This document shows positions 5,250-17,911 of a DNA stretch of 64,000 nt, piece by piece. The stretch's first letter is position 1. Each line of letters begins with the position of its first letter. Source of the DNA: Bartonella apihabitans (GTDB lineage: Bacteria > Pseudomonadota > Alphaproteobacteria > Rhizobiales > Rhizobiaceae); NCBI RefSeq assembly GCF_030758755.1, contig NZ_CP132387.1, positions 496,001 through 560,000 of the forward strand, written 5' to 3'. Under the pieces are notes generated by a model that ran no database searches, had not been told where the DNA came from, and saw only the letters and a list, made by a program, of their open reading frames with translations. The position numbers and the translations under genes are program-made.

Positions 5250-6662
5250 TCAAACGGCAGTGCCGCCAATCGTCATTGCATTGATACGCAAATGCGGAAG
5301 TCCGACACCGACAGGAACACTTTGGCCATTCTTGCCACAGGTACCGATGCCATTGTCAAGTTTGGGGTCGTTGCCGATCATTGTGATGCGTTTCATGGCT
5401 TCAGGGCCATTGCCGATAAGCGTAGCTCCTTTGATCGGGGCAACAATTTTGCCATTTCTGACACGATAGGCTTCGGTACATTCGAACACAAATTTTCCGG
5501 AAGTGATGTCAACCTGACCGCCACCGAAGGAAACGGCATAGATACCGTCCTTCAAGGAGCCGAGCACTTCTTCTGGTGTGTATTGGCCGCCTAACATCAT
5601 TGTATTGGTCATTCTGGGCATTGGTGCACAGGCATAGGATTCACGCCGTCCGTTGCCGGTGGGGCGCATACCCATCAAACGCGCATTAAGCCGGTCTTGC
5701 ATATAGCCGACAAGCTTTCCGTCTTCGATCAGAACATTACGTGCGGAAGGTGTTCCTTCGTCATCAACGGTAAGCGACCCACGACGCCCTGCAATCGAGC
5801 CGTCATCGATAACGGTTACACCTTTTGCAGCAACCTGTTGCCCCATGAGACCTGAAAAAGCAGAAGTCTTTTTACGGTTAAAATCGCCTTCAAGCCCATG
5901 TCCGACAGCTTCATGCAACATGACACCGGGCCACCCGCTTGCAAGAACAACGTCGAATGTGCCAGCCGGCGCAGGCTCGGCTTCAAGGTTTATCAGAGCC
6001 ATACGGAGCGCTTCATCGGCAGCCATTTGCCAATTGTCTTCGGTAATAAAGCGGTCGAAAGCTTCACGACCGCCACAGCCATAAAAGCCGTTTTCAAGTC
6101 TGTCACCTTTGGCTGCAACCACGGACACGGCAAGGCGCACAAGCGGGCGAACATCGCGTACAAGCTCGCCATCGGCACGTAAAATCTCGACCTGTTGCAA
6201 AGAACCGGCAAGCGATACAGAGACTTGCCGTACGGCATCATTTTTATTGCGAATATAGGAATTGATCTTTTGGAGGAGGGCAACTTTAGTTTGAAACGAA
6301 GGTTTAGAGAGCGGGTTTAATTCGTCATAAAGCTTTTTATTGGTACCACGTGGCGCTGCACCATAATTTCCTTGGTAACCGTTGGTGACAGCTTTTGCCG
6401 CATCAGACGCTCTTTTTAATGCCGCTTTTGTAAGCTCTCCGGAATGGGCGTAACCTGTTGCCTCACCCGCGACAGCACGTAAACCGAAGCCTTTATCCTG
6501 ATCGAAGGAACCATTTTTCAGTCGTCCATTGTCGAAAAGGAGCGATTTACTTTCCCGATATTCAAGAAACAGTTCTCCGTCATCAGCATTTTTCAACGTG
6601 TCCTTCACAATTGATTGGACATCATTGGCTCCAACGTCGAATTGTTCGATCAGCGGTTTCAT
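5250..6662 (-). CDS. tldD: Metalloprotease TldD
   Basis: TldD subunit of the TldD/TldE(PmbA) metalloprotease, known from other bacteria for maturation of modified peptides and degradation of unfolded or antitoxin proteins. The 470-residue product carries the zinc motif HEAVGHGLEGD in the middle and a glycine-rich C-terminal half (MLGGQYTPEEVLG, FGGGQVDITSG). The ATG at 6662 is preceded by ACAGGAAAATT; an in-frame extension upstream has no ribosome site. The partner pmbA/tldE is not in this window. Length is close to the usual 475-480. Confidence 0.95.
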   Translation of the reverse strand: MKPLIEQFDVGANDVQSIVKDTLKNADDGELFLEYRESKSLLFDNGRLKNGSFDQDKGFGLRAVAGEATGYAHSGELTKAALKRASDAAKAVTNGYQGNYGAAPRGTNKKLYDELNPLSKPSFQTKVALLQKINSYIRNKNDAVRQVSVSLAGSLQQVEILRADGELVRDVRPLVRLAVSVVAAKGDRLENGFYGCGGREAFDRFITEDNWQMAADEALRMALINLEAEPAPAGTFDVVLASGWPGVMLHEAVGHGLEGDFNRKKTSAFSGLMGQQVAAKGVTVIDDGSIAGRRGSLTVDDEGTPSARNVLIEDGKLVGYMQDRLNARLMGMRPTGNGRRESYACAPMPRMTNTMMLGGQYTPEEVLGSLKDGIYAVSFGGGQVDITSGKFVFECTEAYRVRNGKIVAPIKGATLIGNGPEAMKRITMIGNDPKLDNGIGTCGKNGQSVPVGVGLPHLRINAMTIGGTAV

Positions 6663-6785
6663 ATAATTTTCCTGTCTATCAAGCTGCCATTTGCATTGTT
6701 TATATAAAAACAACAAACGTGTTTATAAAGGCTGCTTCAAGCTTTGTTGACCGGGAAAAATTCCGGTTGAATAATATCGGCTTCA

Positions 6786-7337
6786 TTATTCTTTGGGTAA
6801 TGAATTATAGGCGTCTTTCAAACCATTGAGATCAATCATACCGCCAACGCCTTCTTCAGGTGTCGTGAATATGAAATAGGTTGCCATTTTCCCTTCAAGA
6901 AACGATTTGAGATCGTCATCTTTCAGGAATGCTTCTGCCACGCAATTGTCGCCGAGGCAGCGCCGATATTCCATTTTGCCCATGTCTTTATTATCAATCT
7001 TGATTCCCACACCCAGACGCAGTTCAACCCGGATCGGTACAAAGACACGCATAAGTGTTCCCTGATTCTTCGGCAGCTTATAAAGCGTTACACGAAAAGC
7101 AATATCCGGCCGGTTTTGCGCACGCACATTTTGTACAACTTCACATTGAACATTCGGGGTCCCCGGCGGCAAAGAACAGACTTTTGTCCATGCTCCAAAA
7201 GTTTTGGGAGCAGGTACATCCTGCTGGTTTGGTGCCTGCTGGTTTTGTGCCTGTGCTAAAGCAAGACAAAGTCCCATTATGGAAACTGAATACGCGGCAA
7301 CGCCACAAGCTCGTTTGAAGAATTGACGAAGTGACAT
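6786..7337 (-). CDS. Invasion-associated locus B (IalB) family protein
   Basis: Secreted or periplasmic protein of the IalB family (PF06776). In Bartonella the founding member is linked to erythrocyte invasion, but the family occurs throughout the Hyphomicrobiales and its molecular role is not settled. The ATG at 7337 follows GCAGGAGTTTCC; the frame is open upstream but without a start site. The 183-residue product starts with a signal peptide (residues 1-30, ending about LALAQAQ), followed by a low-complexity Q/P/N linker and the IalB domain with paired cysteines (KVCSLPPG, VQCEVV, CLGDNCVAEAF). It is divergent from the oxidase-like gene at 7614. Confidence 0.87.
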   Translation of the reverse strand: MSLRQFFKRACGVAAYSVSIMGLCLALAQAQNQQAPNQQDVPAPKTFGAWTKVCSLPPGTPNVQCEVVQNVRAQNRPDIAFRVTLYKLPKNQGTLMRVFVPIRVELRLGVGIKIDNKDMGKMEYRRCLGDNCVAEAFLKDDDLKSFLEGKMATYFIFTTPEEGVGGMIDLNGLKDAYNSLPKE

Positions 7338-7613
7338 GGAAACTCCTGCTCGAATCATCATGACGTTATCGCGCTTCAGCCTTTGTGAAAAGTGCCCAAG
7401 AGCTCTAGAACATAAACCATACACAACTGAAATAACATAGTGTTCAATTCTTGGGCGAGAACATGGCAAAAACTGGAAAATTTGACAAAATTGTCGTAAA
7501 GCTGTTTCTATTTGGGGCTGTTTGTCGCATTGTTTTGATATTGAAATGTTGTTAAAGCAATGAAAAAGAGGTTCCGCAATCAACAGATTGCTTGATATTA
7601 TTTGGCAAAATTG

Positions 7614-9092
7614 ATGTCTGAACACGTAAAAAGAAGTTTTTTTTCTTCGATATTAAATCCGGATAGCAAAACTATTGGCACCCTCTATCTGGTGCTTGCT
7701 ATTGTTGCCGGTGTTATCGGGGCAATATTTTCGTTTGTTTTGCGTCTGGCTTTGAACGGGACGAGTCTGGCTTTCCTTCCGGTTTCTTTGTCCGGTGACC
7801 CTGTCCTGTTGTCGTTCATGAACACTGCCCACGCGCTGATTCTCGTGTTCTTTATGGTTATGCCGGCGCTGGTTGGCGGTTTTGCCAACTGGTTTATTCC
7901 GTTAATGATCGGCACTCATAATGTCGCATTTCCCCGCGCAAATTTGTTGGCTTTCTTACTTTTGCCCCTCACAATTGTTTTAGGCTTTATGGCACTTTTG
8001 TCTATCGGTGATGAAAGCCGCTTCAAATTTTTAATGTTGGCAAGCGTTTTTGTCGGTTCGATTTCATTCATCATCAGTTTTGTCAATTTTATTACGACAA
8101 TTATCACAATGCGTGCCCCCGGCCTTACACTTTCACGTTTGCCGGTTTTTGTATGGTCGGTGCTTGTATCCTCTTTTCTGGGGCTGGTTTCGGTGCTGGC
8201 AATGCTTGCCGCTTTGACCGAACTGATTTTCAGTGGCTCTAGCACTGTCGGACAACTATCGATGATGGTATGGTTTTTCAGCCATCCGCAGATCTATGTT
8301 CTGTTATTGCCAGCCTTCGGGATTGTCAGTGAAATACTGGTGACCTTCTGCAAGCGTCGGCTGTGGATGGAAAATGCTGTGATTGCGGCGATGGTATTTA
8401 TCGGTGCTATCAGTCTGGTTCTCTGGATGAATGATCTCTTCCAATTCGAAAAACCCGAGATCATGGGGCATTATTTCAAGGTTGCGCTGCCTTTCGTTGT
8501 TCTGCCAACAGCGTTTATCCTCTTGAGCTGGCTGGTCACATTGTTAAAAAGCCGGTTTGAATTTAAAACGCCAATGCTCTGGGCAATGGGCTTTGTCTTT
8601 ATCGTACTGATGGGGCAAATTTCAGCGCTGCAACTTGTAACCACCGGAAATGCTGCGAACCAATGGAACCAGTCAGCCTTTGTTGCCCATTTCCATTACA
8701 TTCTCTCTTTAAGTGCAGTCTTTGCCATTTTTGCCGGCTGGTATTACTGGTTACCAAAAATGACGGGCTATATTTGCCGCAAATCCACAATGCAAGTGCA
8801 CTTCTGGTTATTGTTTATCGGCGTTAACGCCATTTTCCTGCCTCAACATCTCAATCAACTGAGCGGCGGAATTATTTTCAACCAGAATGCGCTAGGCGTT
8901 TCATCGTCTCTCGGCGCACTTCTCGCCGCTCTCTCGGTTGTTGTTTTTCTTTTTGGTTTGGCTGAAACCTTTATTACGAAACGGAAAGCACAAGATAATC
9001 CGTGGGGCGAGGGGGCTTTGACATTGGAATGGCAATTGCCGTCACCGCCAAACAAAGATGTCTGGGAAAAAGTGCCCGTTATTACAAAATAA
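7614..9092 (+). CDS. Divergent heme-copper oxidase subunit I homologue lacking CuB ligands
   Basis: Twelve-helix-type membrane protein clearly derived from cytochrome c oxidase subunit I (CtaD/CoxA): IGTLYLVLAIVAG, FFMVMPALVGGF, FKTPMLWAMGF and VAHFHYILSLSAVFAIFAGWYYW match the family, as does the DNPWGEGALTLEWQLPSPP tail. At 492 residues it is shorter than the usual 530-560. Heme ligands are kept: H73 (low-spin heme), H359 (high-spin heme), H361 (low-spin heme). One CuB histidine, H224, and the cross-link tyrosine Y228 remain in SHPQIY, but the His-His pair is N273-D274. The D-pathway aspartate is N103, the gating glutamate is Q226 and the K-pathway lysine is I302. Hence oxygen reduction with proton pumping of the normal kind is not expected, yet the frame is intact. 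ctaC is missing upstream. The ATG at 7614 has only a weak ribosome site; a TTG at 7602 is the alternative. Confidence 0.85.
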   Translation: MSEHVKRSFFSSILNPDSKTIGTLYLVLAIVAGVIGAIFSFVLRLALNGTSLAFLPVSLSGDPVLLSFMNTAHALILVFFMVMPALVGGFANWFIPLMIGTHNVAFPRANLLAFLLLPLTIVLGFMALLSIGDESRFKFLMLASVFVGSISFIISFVNFITTIITMRAPGLTLSRLPVFVWSVLVSSFLGLVSVLAMLAALTELIFSGSSTVGQLSMMVWFFSHPQIYVLLLPAFGIVSEILVTFCKRRLWMENAVIAAMVFIGAISLVLWMNDLFQFEKPEIMGHYFKVALPFVVLPTAFILLSWLVTLLKSRFEFKTPMLWAMGFVFIVLMGQISALQLVTTGNAANQWNQSAFVAHFHYILSLSAVFAIFAGWYYWLPKMTGYICRKSTMQVHFWLLFIGVNAIFLPQHLNQLSGGIIFNQNALGVSSSLGALLAALSVVVFLFGLAETFITKRKAQDNPWGEGALTLEWQLPSPPNKDVWEKVPVITK

Positions 9093-9657: not shown

Positions 9658-10602
9658 ATGTCTATATCAAAGCAAGAATCGCCTCAACCGCATATGCCGA
9701 TTGCTTCTCCGGCCGATGCGAATGACTATATAATTCTGTTAAAACCGCGGGTGATGTCACTTGTGGTCTTTACAGCTCTTGTCGGCATGATGGTTGCTCC
9801 CGAACCTATCAATCCGGTTTTAGGCTTTGTTGCGATTTTATGTATTGCTGTTGGCGGTGGAGCATCCGGTGCTTTGAATATGTGGTATGATGCCGACATT
9901 GATGCCATCATGAAACGCACCAGAAAACGTCCGATACCGGCTGGCAAGGTAACTGGCGGAGAAGTGCTGGTTTTCGGGCTTGTGCTTTCTGCCTTGTCAG
10001 TATTCACAATGGGCATTTTCATTAACTGGTTTTCGGCCGCATTCCTTGCCTTTACAATATTCTTTTATGTTGTGATTTATACAATGTGGCTGAAACGTTC
10101 GACACCGCAAAACATTGTTATTGGCGGTGCTGCCGGTGCTTTCCCTCCTATGATCGGCTGGGCAGCAGCAACAGGCACAATCAGTATCGAGAGCGTTATA
10201 TTATTCCTCATCATATTTATGTGGACCCCGCCGCATTTCTGGGCACTTTCGCTTTTTGTCACGACCGATTACGGGGAAGCGCATATCCCTATGATGCCTA
10301 ATGTGAAGGGTGAACGGTCGACCAAAAATCAGATATTGGTTTACGCGGTTCTCATGGCTCTTTGCGGTATCGCGCCTTATTTTTTAAGTTTTGCAGGCAT
10401 CACTTATGGAATTTTGTCAACGATTTTAGGTGTTATTTTTATCTATTATTCTTACGAGCTTTGGAAAACCGAACAACGTGAGCAAACAGTGGCAAAGGCA
10501 AAGAAATTGTTTTTCTTTTCGCTAATCTATCTCGCTGCACTCTTTGCTATATTACTCGTAGAATCGCTGGCTACTCGCCTCATAAGCTATTTGGGAGCGT
10601 GA
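9658..10602 (+). CDS. ctaB: Protoheme IX farnesyltransferase (heme O synthase)
   Basis: UbiA-type membrane prenyltransferase that adds a farnesyl group to protoheme, giving heme O for quinol oxidases and the precursor of heme A. The 314-residue protein has about nine membrane segments, the first Asp-rich loop [19 protein letters not shown] and the second active loop [21 protein letters not shown] coxF-like ORF follows three bases after its stop, as in intact alphaproteobacterial oxidase operons. With the aa3 subunit genes gone from the locus, a likely reason for keeping it is heme O supply for a bo3-type quinol oxidase encoded elsewhere; that is inference. Confidence 0.95.
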
Positions 10603-10604
10603 CA

Positions 10605-10751
10605 ATGGACGAGCAAAAGCATCTTGACCAGATTGCACTTACAGAAATTCAAAAAAAAGCTCAGCGCCATCGGGCAAAAGGTTTGGCTATAGCACTTTTC
10701 CTATTCGTTCTTCTTGTATATGCAGCCACAATGGCGCATTTGAGTGCCTGA
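10605..10751 (+). CDS. CoxF-like small membrane protein
   Basis: A 48-residue ORF too short for usual gene calling. It starts with ATG three bases after the ctaB stop. It has a charged N-terminal half (MDEQKHLDQIALTEIQKK) and one membrane helix (LAIALFLFVLLVYAATMAH). Position directly after ctaB, size and topology match the CoxF protein found between ctaB and ctaG in alphaproteobacteria. No function is established for it that I can name. Here ctaG does not follow; ispH does. Confidence 0.75.
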   Translation: MDEQKHLDQIALTEIQKKAQRHRAKGLAIALFLFVLLVYAATMAHLSA

Positions 10752-10794: not shown

Positions 10795-11814
10795 ATGATA
10801 TCGAAACCACCATTAACAATTCGCCTCTGCGGACCGCGCGGCTTTTGTGCCGGTGTCGACAGAGCAATACAGATCGTCATTCTCGCTTTGAAAAAATATG
10901 GTGCGCCGGTCTATGTGCGTCATGAAATTGTGCATAATCGCTATGTTGTAGAAGGCTTGCAGGCGCGGGGCGCAATTTTTGTTGAAGAGCTTGATGAAAT
11001 CCCCGCCGAACATCATAATCAACCGGTTATTTTTTCAGCCCATGGTGTGCCGAAATCGGTACCTGAAACCGCACGATTGCAAAATCTTTTTTATCTTGAT
11101 GCAACCTGTCCGCTGGTTTCAAAAGTGCATAAACAGGCTATGCGTCACCAGCGCAACGGGCATCATGTCATTCTGATTGGCCATTCCGGTCATCCCGAAG
11201 TTATCGGGACTATGGGGCAGGTTGACCCGGGAACTGTAACTTTGATTGAAAATGTTGAGGATGCCGAAAATTATCAGCCATTGCCCGGTCAAAAACTCGG
11301 ATTTGTCAGCCAGACAACTTTGTCTGTGGAAGACACGGCTGAAATTATCGCTGTATTGAAACAGCGGTTCCCCGATATTGAACCACCGGCTGCTGAATCG
11401 ATTTGCTATGCAACGACCAATCGTCAGGAAGCTGTGAGGGCAGCCGCTCCCGGCAGTGACCTGTTTTTGATTGTCGGTGCTCCGAATTCGTCTAATTCCC
11501 GCCGTCTGGTAGAGGTTGCCGAACGCTTCGGAGCCAAACGTTCCTTGCTCGTGCAACGCGCAGCCGAAATAGACTTTGATCATTTGGATAATGTCCATAC
11601 GGTCAGTCTTTCTGCCGGCGCATCGGCACCGGAAATAATTGTTGATGAAATCATTACTGCATTCAGAAAACGTTATGATGTCACTATAGAAATTGCAGAA
11701 ACTGCGGTCGAAAATGAAACCTTTTTGGTCAACAGGGAATTGCGGGAAGTCGTGTTGACGCCGGAAGATATGGAATTTGTCAATGGCAAAGGAATTCCCG
11801 ATAAAGACAAGTGA
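10795..11814 (+). CDS. ispH: 4-hydroxy-3-methylbut-2-enyl diphosphate reductase
   Basis: Iron-sulfur reductase for the last step of the non-mevalonate pathway, giving IPP and DMAPP. The 339-residue protein shows the family motifs: PRGFCAGVDRAI with the first cluster cysteine, HEIVHNRYVV, DATCPLVSKVH with the second, GHPEVIGTMGQ, and CYATTNRQEAV with the third. Start ATG at 10795. It lies 43 bases after the coxF-like ORF and ahead of thrB, an order common in Hyphomicrobiales where ispH follows the oxidase assembly genes. Heme O synthesis by CtaB draws on the same isoprenoid pool. Confidence 0.97.
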   Translation: MISKPPLTIRLCGPRGFCAGVDRAIQIVILALKKYGAPVYVRHEIVHNRYVVEGLQARGAIFVEELDEIPAEHHNQPVIFSAHGVPKSVPETARLQNLFYLDATCPLVSKVHKQAMRHQRNGHHVILIGHSGHPEVIGTMGQVDPGTVTLIENVEDAENYQPLPGQKLGFVSQTTLSVEDTAEIIAVLKQRFPDIEPPAAESICYATTNRQEAVRAAAPGSDLFLIVGAPNSSNSRRLVEVAERFGAKRSLLVQRAAEIDFDHLDNVHTVSLSAGASAPEIIVDEIITAFRKRYDVTIEIAETAVENETFLVNRELREVVLTPEDMEFVNGKGIPDKDK

Positions 11815-13264: not shown

Positions 13265-14074
13265 TCAATTTTTTTTATCAACGACCAATGTGCCGGTAAA
13301 GGCTATAGGTTCTGCATCAACGATATAAGTGATAGGCCGTGGGGAATTACTATTTTTTGAAATAATACGCGCTGAAAATATTATTTCATGAGCGCTTTTT
13401 TTTACAATTTCGGCAGGCCCGATTTCTTCCATTTTGCCATCAAGGAAAATTGCTTTTATCGTCTCGCCATCTATATGTTTCAAAGTTATGGTTATTGACT
13501 GTCCGTCTTCACGTGCAGAAATGTCAAGATTTCGAGGCTTGCTTTTCGGTAATTTATTTGCGGCCATAGCGAGAAGCGACGCTGGAAGCGGCGTTTTGTC
13601 ACTTACATCTGAAAAGTCGAATGGAATATTGACCGGAATACAGATTTCTTTGCATAAGCCTAAAGTGAACTGTCCTTTGAATGCTGCATTCTTCGTTTCT
13701 TTTTCAGCGCAAAATGGGAGCATTACCCCGCCTTTATAACCGATAGACCAATCATTACCGTCTATAAAGAGCTGAGGAACCGGAAATAAAATCTGGTAGT
13801 TTTTCGATGGTTGAAAGTCGAATTCTGGCGCCATGCCCGAACTCCCCGGATTTTGCCAATATGTTTTCCAACCCGGTTTGAGATCGACTTCTATTATTCC
13901 TTCAAAACGCTTGCTTTCTTTACCATTGTTCAGCGCAACACGCACACGCCCTCCATCAATTTCATGCCAGGGAGTGGCTAACAATTGAACAGGTGAATTT
14001 GTTTGTGCAAATGTCGGTAAAGATACAAACGAGGTGAAGACGAAAAAGGAAACCAGCTTTAAAAGAAAACGCAA
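13265..14074 (-). CDS. Periplasmic DsbD N-terminal-domain protein
   Basis: Predicted exported protein with the DsbD alpha-domain fold (DsbC/thiol-reductase-partner domain) but without the membrane and thioredoxin parts of full DsbD. The proposed start is TTG at 14074, preceded by GAGGATGGAGAA and giving a signal peptide RFLLKLVSFFVFTSF to about PTFAQ; an upstream TTG at 14122 would add charged residues ahead of it. The 269-residue product has PGWKTYWQNPG, a cysteine in PFCAEK and a pair in LGLCKEICIPV. A role in periplasmic thiol exchange is inferred; no partner gene is adjacent. Confidence 0.78.
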   Translation of the reverse strand: MRFLLKLVSFFVFTSFVSLPTFAQTNSPVQLLATPWHEIDGGRVRVALNNGKESKRFEGIIEVDLKPGWKTYWQNPGSSGMAPEFDFQPSKNYQILFPVPQLFIDGNDWSIGYKGGVMLPFCAEKETKNAAFKGQFTLGLCKEICIPVNIPFDFSDVSDKTPLPASLLAMAANKLPKSKPRNLDISAREDGQSITITLKHIDGETIKAIFLDGKMEEIGPAEIVKKSAHEIIFSARIISKNSNSPRPITYIVDAEPIAFTGTLVVDKKN

Positions 14075-14173
14075 TTCTCCATCCTCGTCATCAACTAACA
14101 ATTTATACAAGAGTTTTGTCAAAAAACTTCACTTTTTTCTTGCAACTCGTCAATGTACGATTACTTTTAAATT

Positions 14174-15030: not shown

Positions 15031-17911
15031 TTAAATTCCGGCTTTCGGATGTTTCGTGACAAGAGTGATAAGCTCTTCAACGCCCACCGGTTCGGTAAAT
15101 ACATTGCTTTGAACAAATTCGCAGCCTTCTTCACGCAACATAACGGCTTCGTTTTCCTTTTCGACCCCCTCGGCGATCACTTTCAGCTCGAGATCATGGG
15201 CCATTGTAATGATGGATTTCAACACCAGACGTTTCTTCGAACTATCGACTTCCAGAAGTGAACGATCGAGTTTTATCATATCGAATGGATAACGTAAGAG
15301 AAAGGCGAGAGAAGAATAGCCGGTACCGAAATTGTCGAGTGCAAGTCCGATGCCGAGTGCTTTGATCTTTTCAAGAAGATTGGATGATTGCTCGGGATTT
15401 TCTATCAGAATGGATTCTGACATTTCCATCATCAAGCGTCCCTTATTGACAGGATTGCGCATCAAAATTGCTTTCAATTCATTGATCAGTTCCTGATGAA
15501 CCATCTCTGCGCTCGGTATATTGACTGAAATAAAGAAGGATTGTTTCGGAAAACGATCCTGAATATGAGCGAGGTCTTCAACAACAGTTGACATAGCAAA
15601 TTTCGCAAGCGGCATGACGACTTGCTCACTTTCTGCCGTGTGAATGAAATCGACGGCCGACAAGTTGCCATGGCGGGGATGGTGCCATTCCATCAGCGCT
15701 TCAAAACCGACGATTTGTCCGTCATTGAGGTCAAGAACCGGATGGTAAAGCACTTTGATTTCGTTGCGTTGAAGCGCATAACGAATATCATTGCCCATGC
15801 TGTTACGCTCAAGCCCCAAAGTGCGGAAATTGGGACGGAAAGGTTCTATTTTATTGCCACCAGCTTTTTTGGCGTAAATCATCGCGAGTTCTGCGTCACT
15901 CAACATATCTTCGGCATTCGAATTGCCTTCGGTCCATGTGATGAGGCCGATAGATGCGGATAACTTGACTTCGCGTTCTGAAAAAATAATAGGAGCGGCA
16001 ACTGTTCTTTGCAATTGGTCAGCGAATGCTGCAATTTTGGCAGGATCGGTCTGGCTTGTGAGGACGATTGCAAAACGATCTGTCGAGAGGCGCGAAAGTG
16101 TATCTTCGGGTGTAATAAGGCGCCAGACGGCGCGCAATTGTCAGCAGAAATGTGTCACCGACCGACATGCCGAATTGATAATTTATATTACGAAAACCAT
16201 CAAAATCGATAACGAATACAGTCGGTCTGATCGGCCGACCTGCCACAGCAAGATTGACAAAAGTTTGCAGGTGATCAAGGAAAAGCTGCTGATTGGGCAA
16301 GCCTGTCAAATTATCATGGACAGAGTCTTGCAATAATCTTTCTTCCGCTTTCTTGTGATCGGTAACATTGACAAGTGTTCCCACCACCCGCACAATTTCT
16401 CCGTCAGAACCGATGACTGGTCTGGCTCTTAATGCAAACCAATAATAGTGTCCGTCGCCGGAACGCAAACGCAATGTTTGGTCAATCCGGCCTTTGCGGG
16501 TATCGAGAATCATATCGAGTATCGCACGAAAGCGATCCCGATCGTCGCTGTGCAAAGCTTCAACCCAGTTGCGGATTGTTCCATTCAATTCTCCCGCAGT
16601 GGAACCGAGATAAATCGAAAGATCGGGATTGATAACCACACGGTCACGTCTCACATCCCAATCCCAGACAATGTCGCCCGCTCCCATAACCGCAAGAGCC
16701 TGCCTTTCAAGATCGGAAAATATGCCTTGATGGAACGCGCCACCTGAAAACGCATGTTGCATAACCGTAAAGGCAATAAGAAGAACGATGAGAACCAGTC
16801 CGCCGGCAAGTGCAGGTTGAACAATATCATTATCAAGCTTGCCGGTTACACACACATAAGCTCCGCAAAGCCAAAAGATAATCAGAAGCCATGTCGGTAT
16901 CAACATAATGGCACGGTCGTAGCCGCGGATAGAAAGATAGCCAATGAGAACAATACCGAGTAGGGCGGTCAATCCGAAGGAAAGTCTGGCAATACCGGCT
17001 GCTCTTGTCGGGTCATAGACCGCGAAAGCTCCGAGTGCGCATAAAGCGATTATCCAGGCCGCCGCGCCATAGCTGAAATGGTAATGCCAGCGGTTTAAGT
17101 GGAGATAGGTAAAGAGAAAGATAAAGAGAGACGCAGCCAGTGCCACTTCCGTTGCCGCTCGCCACATCGGTTCGGTTTGCGCCGAGATAACGAATAATTT
17201 GTTCAAAAAATTGAAATCGATGCCGATATAGGCAAGCACTGCCCAGGCGACTGCTGCTGTTGCCGGAAAAAGGCCGGTTCCCCGCACCACAAAAAGAACA
17301 CTCAAGAGGAGGGCGAGAAGTCCGGAGATGCCAAGCAAAATACCGTGGTAGAGCGTATAAGAGTTAATTGTATCCTTATAAGCTTCCGGTTCCCACAAAT
17401 AGACCTGTGGCAGTTTTGATGAACCAAGTTCGGCAACCAGTGTGACAACCGCCCCCGGATTGATGGTAATTCTAAAAACATCCGAATCAGGACTGGATTG
17501 CCTATCAAGAGCAAAACCTTCAGACGGGGTGATAGATTGAATGCGCACCGAACCAAGATCGGGCCATAACAGGCCGGATCCTGCCATCCGATAATGCGGT
17601 GTAACAATCAGGCGGTCAATCTGGTCGTCGGTGGGGTTGGCTATGGCAAAAACCGCCCAGTCACTTTCTGCGTGGTCGCCATTGCCCTGCATTTCGATAC
17701 GCCGAACAATACCATCCGGTCCGGCCGCCGTCGATGTTTGAAAAGTGTTCCCCTTGATGTGGTGGATTTCGACAGCGCGGGATAAATCAAGTGCGGTATC
17801 TTGCGAAGATATTTTGACGGGTTCAACAGACAATGCCGACTGGCACAACAGGGCGATCATCCCCAGTGTCCAGAATATAAAAATAGATACGGTCTTGCCT
17901 ATAATCTTCAC
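15031..17911 (-). pseudogene. GGDEF-EAL membrane signalling protein, frameshifted
   Basis: Encodes a roughly 960-residue c-di-GMP-type regulator in two frames. The first, from a GTG at 17911 (GAGG upstream), covers a signal sequence, a periplasmic domain, about seven membrane helices, a PAS domain and the start of GGDEF, ending at 16019. The second (15031 to about 16137) continues GGDEF and EAL. The switch lies near 16125, between IARRL and RLITPEDTL, and equals one extra or two missing bases. Both catalytic domains look degenerate: GGDEF is STDRF, and the EAL metal motif DDFGTG is DNFGTG although EAL itself is kept. It follows the acetyltransferase in the usual thrC-M16-GNAT-GGDEF/EAL order. 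Before the frameshift it was probably a binding or sensing protein, not an active cyclase. Confidence 0.85.

Follow-up and report, generated by a model that had tools for sequence, protein, structure and literature searches.

What can a cytochrome c oxidase subunit I do once its copper ligands are gone? This question is raised by a 64,000-nucleotide stretch of Bartonella apihabitans DNA (contig NZ_CP132387.1, positions 496,001 to 560,000; hereafter the window), in which one open frame encodes a homologue of CtaD, the A-type aa3 oxidase subunit I, with the histidine pair of the CuB copper site replaced by Asn-Asp. We refer to this CuB-less gene as ctaD*. The source genome (G000; 2.74 Mb) belongs to a Bartonella of the B. 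apihabitans group and holds two COX1 genes, ctaD* and a CyoB, the latter passing the CyoB equivalog cut-off (1031 versus 1020.35 bits) and retaining HPEVY, the HH pair, and the pathway Lys and Asp. Judging by the sequences compared here, the CuB-less state is a family-wide trait of Bartonellaceae and not one odd gene, and the product of ctaD* probably does another job than burning oxygen.

A subunit I homologue without the CuB histidine pair

The ctaD* protein was assigned to the COX1 family in a Pfam search (PF00115, E = 2e-73) and has the homology and the 12-helix fold of the heme-copper oxidase superfamily, its closest solved structures being mitochondrial and alphaproteobacterial cytochrome c oxidase subunit I chains. 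Its top NCBIfam match was the CtaD equivalog (TIGR02891) with 324.6 bits, below the cut-off of 670.75, which a Rhizobium CtaD control exceeded (737.4). The CyoB and QoxB equivalogs scored 215.2 and 219.9 bits against cut-offs of 1020.35 and 1015.5, and no NOR family was among the matches at 1e-3, giving no sign of qNOR kinship. Codon reading bore out the intact CtaD-type frame at 7614..9092 with H73, H359, and H361 described in the initial annotation, and each substitution listed there (Asn-Asp for the CuB pair, N103, Q226, and I302) was found in the DNA codons. Residue roles are those that we presume from the Rhodobacter, Paracoccus, and bovine enzymes. Two features had been missed: the retention of H224 and Y228, and the deletion of three periplasmic loops, namely the stretch GGGWTxYPPL between transmembrane helices 3 and 4 (TM3-4), most of the TM5-6 loop, and the MPRR loop.

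Orthologues of ctaD* were present in 14 of 71 Bartonella genomes at a threshold of 1e-70, the level at which the absence from the other 57 holds; a looser search (0.001) returned only Cyo-type matches in 28 of 37 genus genomes. Within a family search of 121 genomes, 111 had a match at 1e-70, and a degenerate copy in G100 lay below that limit. Residues were read in 30 of the family-search loci, one of them the window, and additionally in G166, G204, and G150, the last of which has a canonical CtaD. Outside Bartonella, CuB-less copies were found in G120, G166, G204, and G100, from three genera (g51, g97, and g31), each genome also carrying one additional COX1 and one COX2 match that adjoin. Altogether, 136 CtaD rows were compared (repeat copies of the same gene included), of which 111 had the canonical residue at every one of thirteen tested positions and 25 were CuB-less. 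The CuB-less state characterized all 14 Bartonella copies, all four sister-genus copies read, and none of the 111 other CtaD rows, and can therefore be attributed neither to sequencing error, which was also ruled out by the same residues in 14 assemblies, nor to chance. The orthologues in 14 Bartonella genomes likewise ruled out a gene unique to the window genome.

The replacement of the copper ligands takes several forms. Among the 14 Bartonella genomes the pair is Asn-Asp in ten, Gln-Asp in three, and Ser-Asp in B. tamiae; in the sister genera it is Gln-Asn (G120, G204, and G100) or Gln-Thr (G166). The K-pathway Lys is replaced in 17/17 CuB-less rows. Gln226, by contrast, is a local change and no family trait: nine of the 14 Bartonella genomes have Glu at this position and five have Gln (12 and five of 17 CuB-less rows). 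Position 224 is His in 17/17 rows; at position 228, 14 rows have Tyr and three have Phe. The K-pathway Lys and D-pathway Asp expected of a CtaD are replaced in the window gene by I302 and N103. The histidine sextet, given as the signature of the heme-copper superfamily in the portion of PMC3413370 available to us, is reduced to four of six in 14/14 Bartonella copies, to three in G204, and to none in G100. When 22 hand-picked canonical rows (L163 and 21 of the 111) were compared with 17 CuB-less rows, G100 left out, 51 of the 248 columns invariant in the former were retained and 65 were changed in all of the latter, periplasmic loops included, the remainder being mixed. Loss therefore extends beyond the active site. 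The idea of a selective loss of the catalytic centre stands insofar as residues for O2 reduction and proton movement are gone while frame and fold are kept; it falls short at these 65 columns, which show that changes occurred elsewhere too.

Origin, selection, and loss of partner genes

In the ctaD trees, all CuB-less rows fell on one side of a branch supported at 100/100, with long-branch warnings, and a tree of five neighbouring genes united Bartonella and the three other genera at 100/100. The neighbour tree included three Bartonella genomes without ctaD*, with L037 represented by only 18% of columns, and the inner order of the sister genera is unsure owing to long branches. Two changes among the canonical, CuB-less, and ctaD-free states account for this tree: a single remodelling on the stem and a single loss within Bartonella, where the ctaD*-bearing B. 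tamiae groups as sister of the three sampled ctaD*-free genomes (81/69). The trees thus fit a scenario in which one remodelling would have preceded the Bartonellaceae ancestor, followed by loss in other Bartonella. Horizontal gain was ruled out by the position of ctaD*, the same as that of ctaD in 15 canonical comparator loci, and by the agreement of gene and neighbour trees. A plasmid collection search yielded 906 records, every one below 60% identity.

The ratio of nonsynonymous to synonymous substitution rates (dN/dS, omega) was 0.07-0.16 for ctaD* in bee-group pairs (Nei-Gojobori), leaving out pairs with infinite dS; for B. tamiae, dS was saturated in most pairs. We take B. apihabitans, B. 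choladocola, and B. apis to be bee-gut bacteria, the other Bartonella being presumably blood-borne. Neighbouring genes gave 0.007-0.050 (tldD), 0.018-0.053 (ispH), and 0.023-0.116 (ctaB) in the same group. These values argue for the view, already put forward from the window alone, that random decay does not explain the gene: omega is far from 1, and the frame breaks in sister strains that would mark a pseudogene did not appear, no stop being found in the frame of any of the 14 Bartonella copies. A plain or recent pseudogene in the bee group is therefore ruled out by omega, and for Bartonella the evidence supports re-use over decay.

The canonical locus reads tldD-ialB-ctaC-ctaD-ctaB-ctaG-ctaE-surf1-ispH-thrB-rnhA in Rhizobium (L031) and 14 further family genomes, thrB being a presumed name. 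All eleven genes were seen in 14 of the 15 canonical loci; tldD is partial at the edge in L180, and the canonical locus L168 stops at the contig end after ctaE. In the window and in the B. apihabitans, B. apis, B. choladocola, and B. tamiae loci, ctaC, ctaG, ctaE, and surf1 are gone, with ctaD and ctaB remaining; the stretch between ctaB and ispH that holds ctaG, ctaE, and surf1 in canonical relatives is without them in the window. Three Bartonella loci without ctaD* (G022, G009, and G036) read tldD-ialB-ctaB-ispH. The same four partner genes gave no match in the loci of G120, G166, G204, and G100, and CtaG (PF04442) was found in 0/61 genus genomes. Subunit II (PF00116) and subunit III (PF00510) matches are present in 59 and 60 of these 61 genomes. 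The sole ones in G000 flank cyoB, and in 12 of the 14 ctaD*-bearing genomes the two share a contig at a distance of about 3 kb, the arrangement of a cyo operon; in G006 they fall on separate contigs, and in G012 (86% complete) neither of the two subunits nor cyoB was matched. With the partners expected of a CtaD (ctaC, ctaE, and ctaG) absent from its locus and the available subunit II and III matches Cyo-like, ctaD* is therefore an orphan.

Heme A synthase (PF02628) occurs in 61/61 genus genomes and therefore does not track ctaD*, and ctaB adjoins ctaD* in every gene-bearing locus read. Two frame observations were made in these genes: heme A synthase is split into two overlapping frames at a G000 site beyond the window (G000:C3:839594-840554, L147), possibly through an assembly indel, with a single open frame in the same-species genome G080, and ctaB is apparently split into two overlapping frames in a complete B. 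choladocola genome (L029, 11045-11985).

Possible function of ctaD* and the alternatives

Mutant work on oxidases underlies the expectation that lesions of this kind abolish O2 reduction with proton pumping. From the loss of two of three CuB ligands, the K-pathway Lys, mostly the D-pathway Asp, and the loops facing subunit II, we therefore infer that ctaD* cannot reduce O2 to water while pumping protons. Tentatively, we favour for Bartonella a CtaD-derived membrane diheme cytochrome that would bind a gas or oxidant or pass single electrons; a diheme redox or gas-binding role is plausible there. The gene is a vertical descendant of the A-type subunit I gene that the Bartonellaceae ancestor inherited. 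Comparison with canonical loci shows that subunits II and III, CtaG, and Surf1 were lost from the locus and that subunit I was kept alone and remodelled: two of three CuB ligands, the K-pathway Lys, the D-pathway Asp in most rows, and those periplasmic loops that face subunit II disappeared. H73 and H361 would hold a six-coordinate low-spin heme, and H359 a five-coordinate heme whose polar distal pocket would be lined by H224, residues 273/274, and Glu or Gln at 226. Such a protein may bind a small oxidant or gas, such as nitric oxide (NO), O2, or peroxide, or may hand on single electrons, perhaps received from bc1-linked cytochrome c via heme edges uncovered by loop loss. These edges, open toward the periplasm, could permit direct electron entry or could weaken heme binding.

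Several observations weigh against this reading. The heme ligands H73, H359, and H361 are retained in Bartonella (14/14 copies) and in two of the three sister genera, so far as originally claimed, but H359 is Asn in G204, where the frame is still open, and the G100 copy (L199, 6930-8267, minus strand; G100:C2) is without all six metal-ligand histidines in an open frame of 446 codons. In addition, the MPRR, His-Asp, and GGGWT residues are gone from the CuB-less rows; we take these to hold the heme propionates and the Mg site. For these three reasons the two hemes are putative, and the initial proposal of re-use as a diheme membrane protein is thus supported in Bartonella as to re-use and weakened by the two sister copies as to the hemes. 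Moreover, ctaD* evolves faster than its neighbours, though far from neutrally, and its disappearance from other Bartonella left ctaA and ctaB in place in the loci read.

The distribution of cytochrome c1 gives a clue to a possible electron source. Cytochrome c1 (PF02167) is present in 13 of 14 ctaD*-bearing Bartonella, the miss being G018 (85% complete), and intact in three of seven genomes chosen from the 57 without ctaD*; it is missing in G022, G009, and G004, and G015 was counted as having lost it because its pieces hold stops, although the search still scores a match. The resulting association with ctaD* (Fisher p = 0.025; 0.007 without G018) ignores kinship and depends on this treatment of G015. 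Outside Bartonella the link fails, cytochrome c1 being present in G120 and G166, in the ligand-less G100, and in G099 and G170 with one COX1 gene each, while G204 gave no match. As an observation in its own right, the stop-containing c1 remains of G015 (G015:C1:249967-250615), a Bartonella without ctaD*, hint at bc1 decay in that genome.

The alternative that survives best, although we consider it unlikely, is a pseudo-enzyme whose hydrophobic fold is kept for a non-redox job, such as docking CtaB/CtaA or the Cyo oxidase in heme delivery or assembly, heme itself being dispensable. This would account for the open frames that persist after the loss of six histidines in G100 and of H359 in G204: at 0.05 neutral changes per site, a G100-like frame would be stop-free with a probability of 0.108, falling to 0.006 at 0.1, which makes it unlikely that the copy without ligands died long ago. 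It would also suit the ctaB gene next door in every ctaD* bearer read. However, Bartonella without ctaD* retain ctaA, ctaB, and the Cyo-type oxidase and therefore need no such helper, and a heme-free job would not require the three heme-ligand histidines that 16/17 rows keep.

A slow relic, in which a dying gene keeps its frame by chance, is improbable. Its faster evolution relative to the neighbours, its lost partner genes, its deletion in other Bartonella, and the fall of ligand losses in small genomes of genus g31 (1.1 Mb in G100) are what such a relic would show, but the omega range, the frames open in 14/14 Bartonella and 4/4 sister copies, and the 51 canonical-invariant columns deeply conserved in all 17 rows are not. 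It is also very improbable that ctaD* replaces, or alternates with, subunit I of the Cyo quinol oxidase in an isoform whose activity is altered: these genomes do have subunit II and III matches of Cyo type, and an orphan CcoN4 of Pseudomonas aeruginosa serves in alternative oxidase isoforms (PMC5697931, available portion), yet the loops facing subunit II are deleted, the protein scores higher as CtaD than as CyoB, and without CuB such an isoform would not reduce O2. Equally hard to credit is other-metal or NO-dismutase-like chemistry, in which H224 and Asp274 (with Tyr228) bind another metal or two NO react without outside electrons or protons: putative NO dismutases show similar His-to-Asn, Glu-to-Gln, and proton-channel changes with no electron entry (PMC3413370, same portion), H224 is kept in 17/17 rows, and Asp274 is found in 14/14 Bartonella genomes, but position 274 is Asn or Thr in sister genera, position 228 varies, two metal ligands rather than one are gone, and the NCBIfam matches of this CtaD-derived protein include no NOR family.

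Compared with the membrane diheme cytochrome favoured for Bartonella, a broader proposal is more speculative, and we rate it as doubtful: that Bartonellaceae hold a new class of the heme-copper superfamily, a single-subunit, copper-free diheme cytochrome that would take bc1-linked cytochrome c electrons via an uncovered heme edge and react with NO, peroxide, or O2 without proton pumping, some members having shed their hemes stepwise in a series from oxidase to heme-less protein.

Features of the window locus

The positions of ctaD*, its diagnostic residues, and its neighbours are given in Table 1. A promoter scan found four candidates against 4.3 expected from shuffles. Two further genes lie downstream on the minus strand: a DsbD N-terminal domain protein beside rnhA (13265-14122), a neighbour at 40-51% identity in the Bartonella loci read, and two overlapping open reading frames (15031-17911) that seem to divide one PAS-GGDEF-EAL protein, GGDEF parts being found in both, which may reflect a frame break.

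Table 1. Coordinates of ctaD*, its diagnostic residues, and adjacent genes in the window
Feature	Position	Strand	Basis or occurrence
ctaD*, CuB-less orphan cytochrome c oxidase subunit I homologue, 492 aa	7614..9092	+	ATG-to-stop open frame
H73, low-spin heme ligand position (presumed role)	7830..7832	+	In 17/17 CuB-less rows; lost in G100
N103, D-pathway Asp position	7920..7922	+	Asn in 16/17 CuB-less rows; Asp in G204 and in G100
HPQIY: H224 (third CuB ligand), Q226, Y228	8283..8297	+	Codon reading, alignment
Q226 codon	8289..8291	+	Read in DNA
N273-D274, replacing CuB His-His pair	8430..8435	+	HH in 111/111 other CtaD rows
I302, K-pathway Lys position	8517..8519	+	Ile in 16/17, Leu in 1/17 rows
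H359, high-spin heme ligand position	8688..8690	+	In 16/17 rows; Asn in G204
H361, low-spin heme ligand position	8694..8696	+	In 17/17 rows
tldD/pmbA-family gene, upstream locus anchor	5250..6716	-	PmbA/TldD domains; synteny
ialB-family gene, upstream neighbour retained from ancestral locus	6786..7625	-	PF06776; synteny
ctaB, UbiA family, heme O synthase type, downstream neighbour in ancestral cta locus	9658..10602	+	PF01040, E = 5e-63; synteny
CoxF-like small membrane protein, 48 aa (presumed name)	10605..10751	+	Open reading frame; no Pfam match
ispH (LytB), downstream locus anchor	10795..11814	+	PF02401; synteny

Significance and comparison with known systems

The metal sites of heme-copper oxidases are usually regarded as fixed, and the ctaD* family departs from that. 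According to the trees, Bartonellaceae have carried an orphan subunit I, stripped of its copper pair and proton paths, since before their common ancestor, and in Bartonella the gene was measured to be under purifying selection. The family offers a natural test of the heme-copper fold without CuB, in lineages whose count of metal-type histidines is four, three, or zero, and it raises the question of where retained bc1 electrons go when ctaD* is the only cytochrome c oxidase relative. Metabolic models would be misled if the gene were annotated simply as cytochrome c oxidase subunit I.

In the portions of the literature available to us, a bd oxidase is described, within Bartonellaceae, for B. tamiae alone (PMC5322542), the bd system as lost within Bartonella (PMC4013037), and cytochrome c oxidase genes as present in one reduced planthopper symbiont of the family, without residue detail in that portion (PMC12661939). 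A term search of the accessible part of a review on oxidase assembly factors (PMC9145763) gave no match for Bartonella, and for the terms used no description of a CuB-less orphan CtaD was found in the open-licence literature, most subscription papers being outside its scope.

Among known systems, ctaD* resembles the A-type aa3 subunit I (CtaD/CoxA, TIGR02891) in whole-length homology, locus position, fold, and four of six metal-type histidines, but differs in lacking the CuB His pair, the K-pathway Lys, mostly the D-pathway Asp, the periplasmic loops, and subunits II and III in the locus. The putative NO dismutases are, like ctaD*, superfamily members with a changed metal ligand and proton channel, and the available portion of their description (PMC3413370) reports one His ligand replaced by Asn, Glu replaced by Gln near the site, and no electron entry; these proteins derive from qNOR and lose one His, whereas ctaD* derives from CtaD and loses two. 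The orphan cbb3 subunit CcoN4 of P. aeruginosa is also a lone catalytic-subunit homologue outside a full operon but, according to the part of PMC5697931 at hand, takes part in respiring isoforms, in contrast to ctaD*, which lacks copper ligands and partner subunits of its own type. Finally, the Rhodobacter oxidase mutants E286Q (1m57), K362M (3om3), and D132A (3omi) carry changes at the same three positions, yet as single lesions in whole complexes, whereas in ctaD* several are fixed together in a lone subunit.
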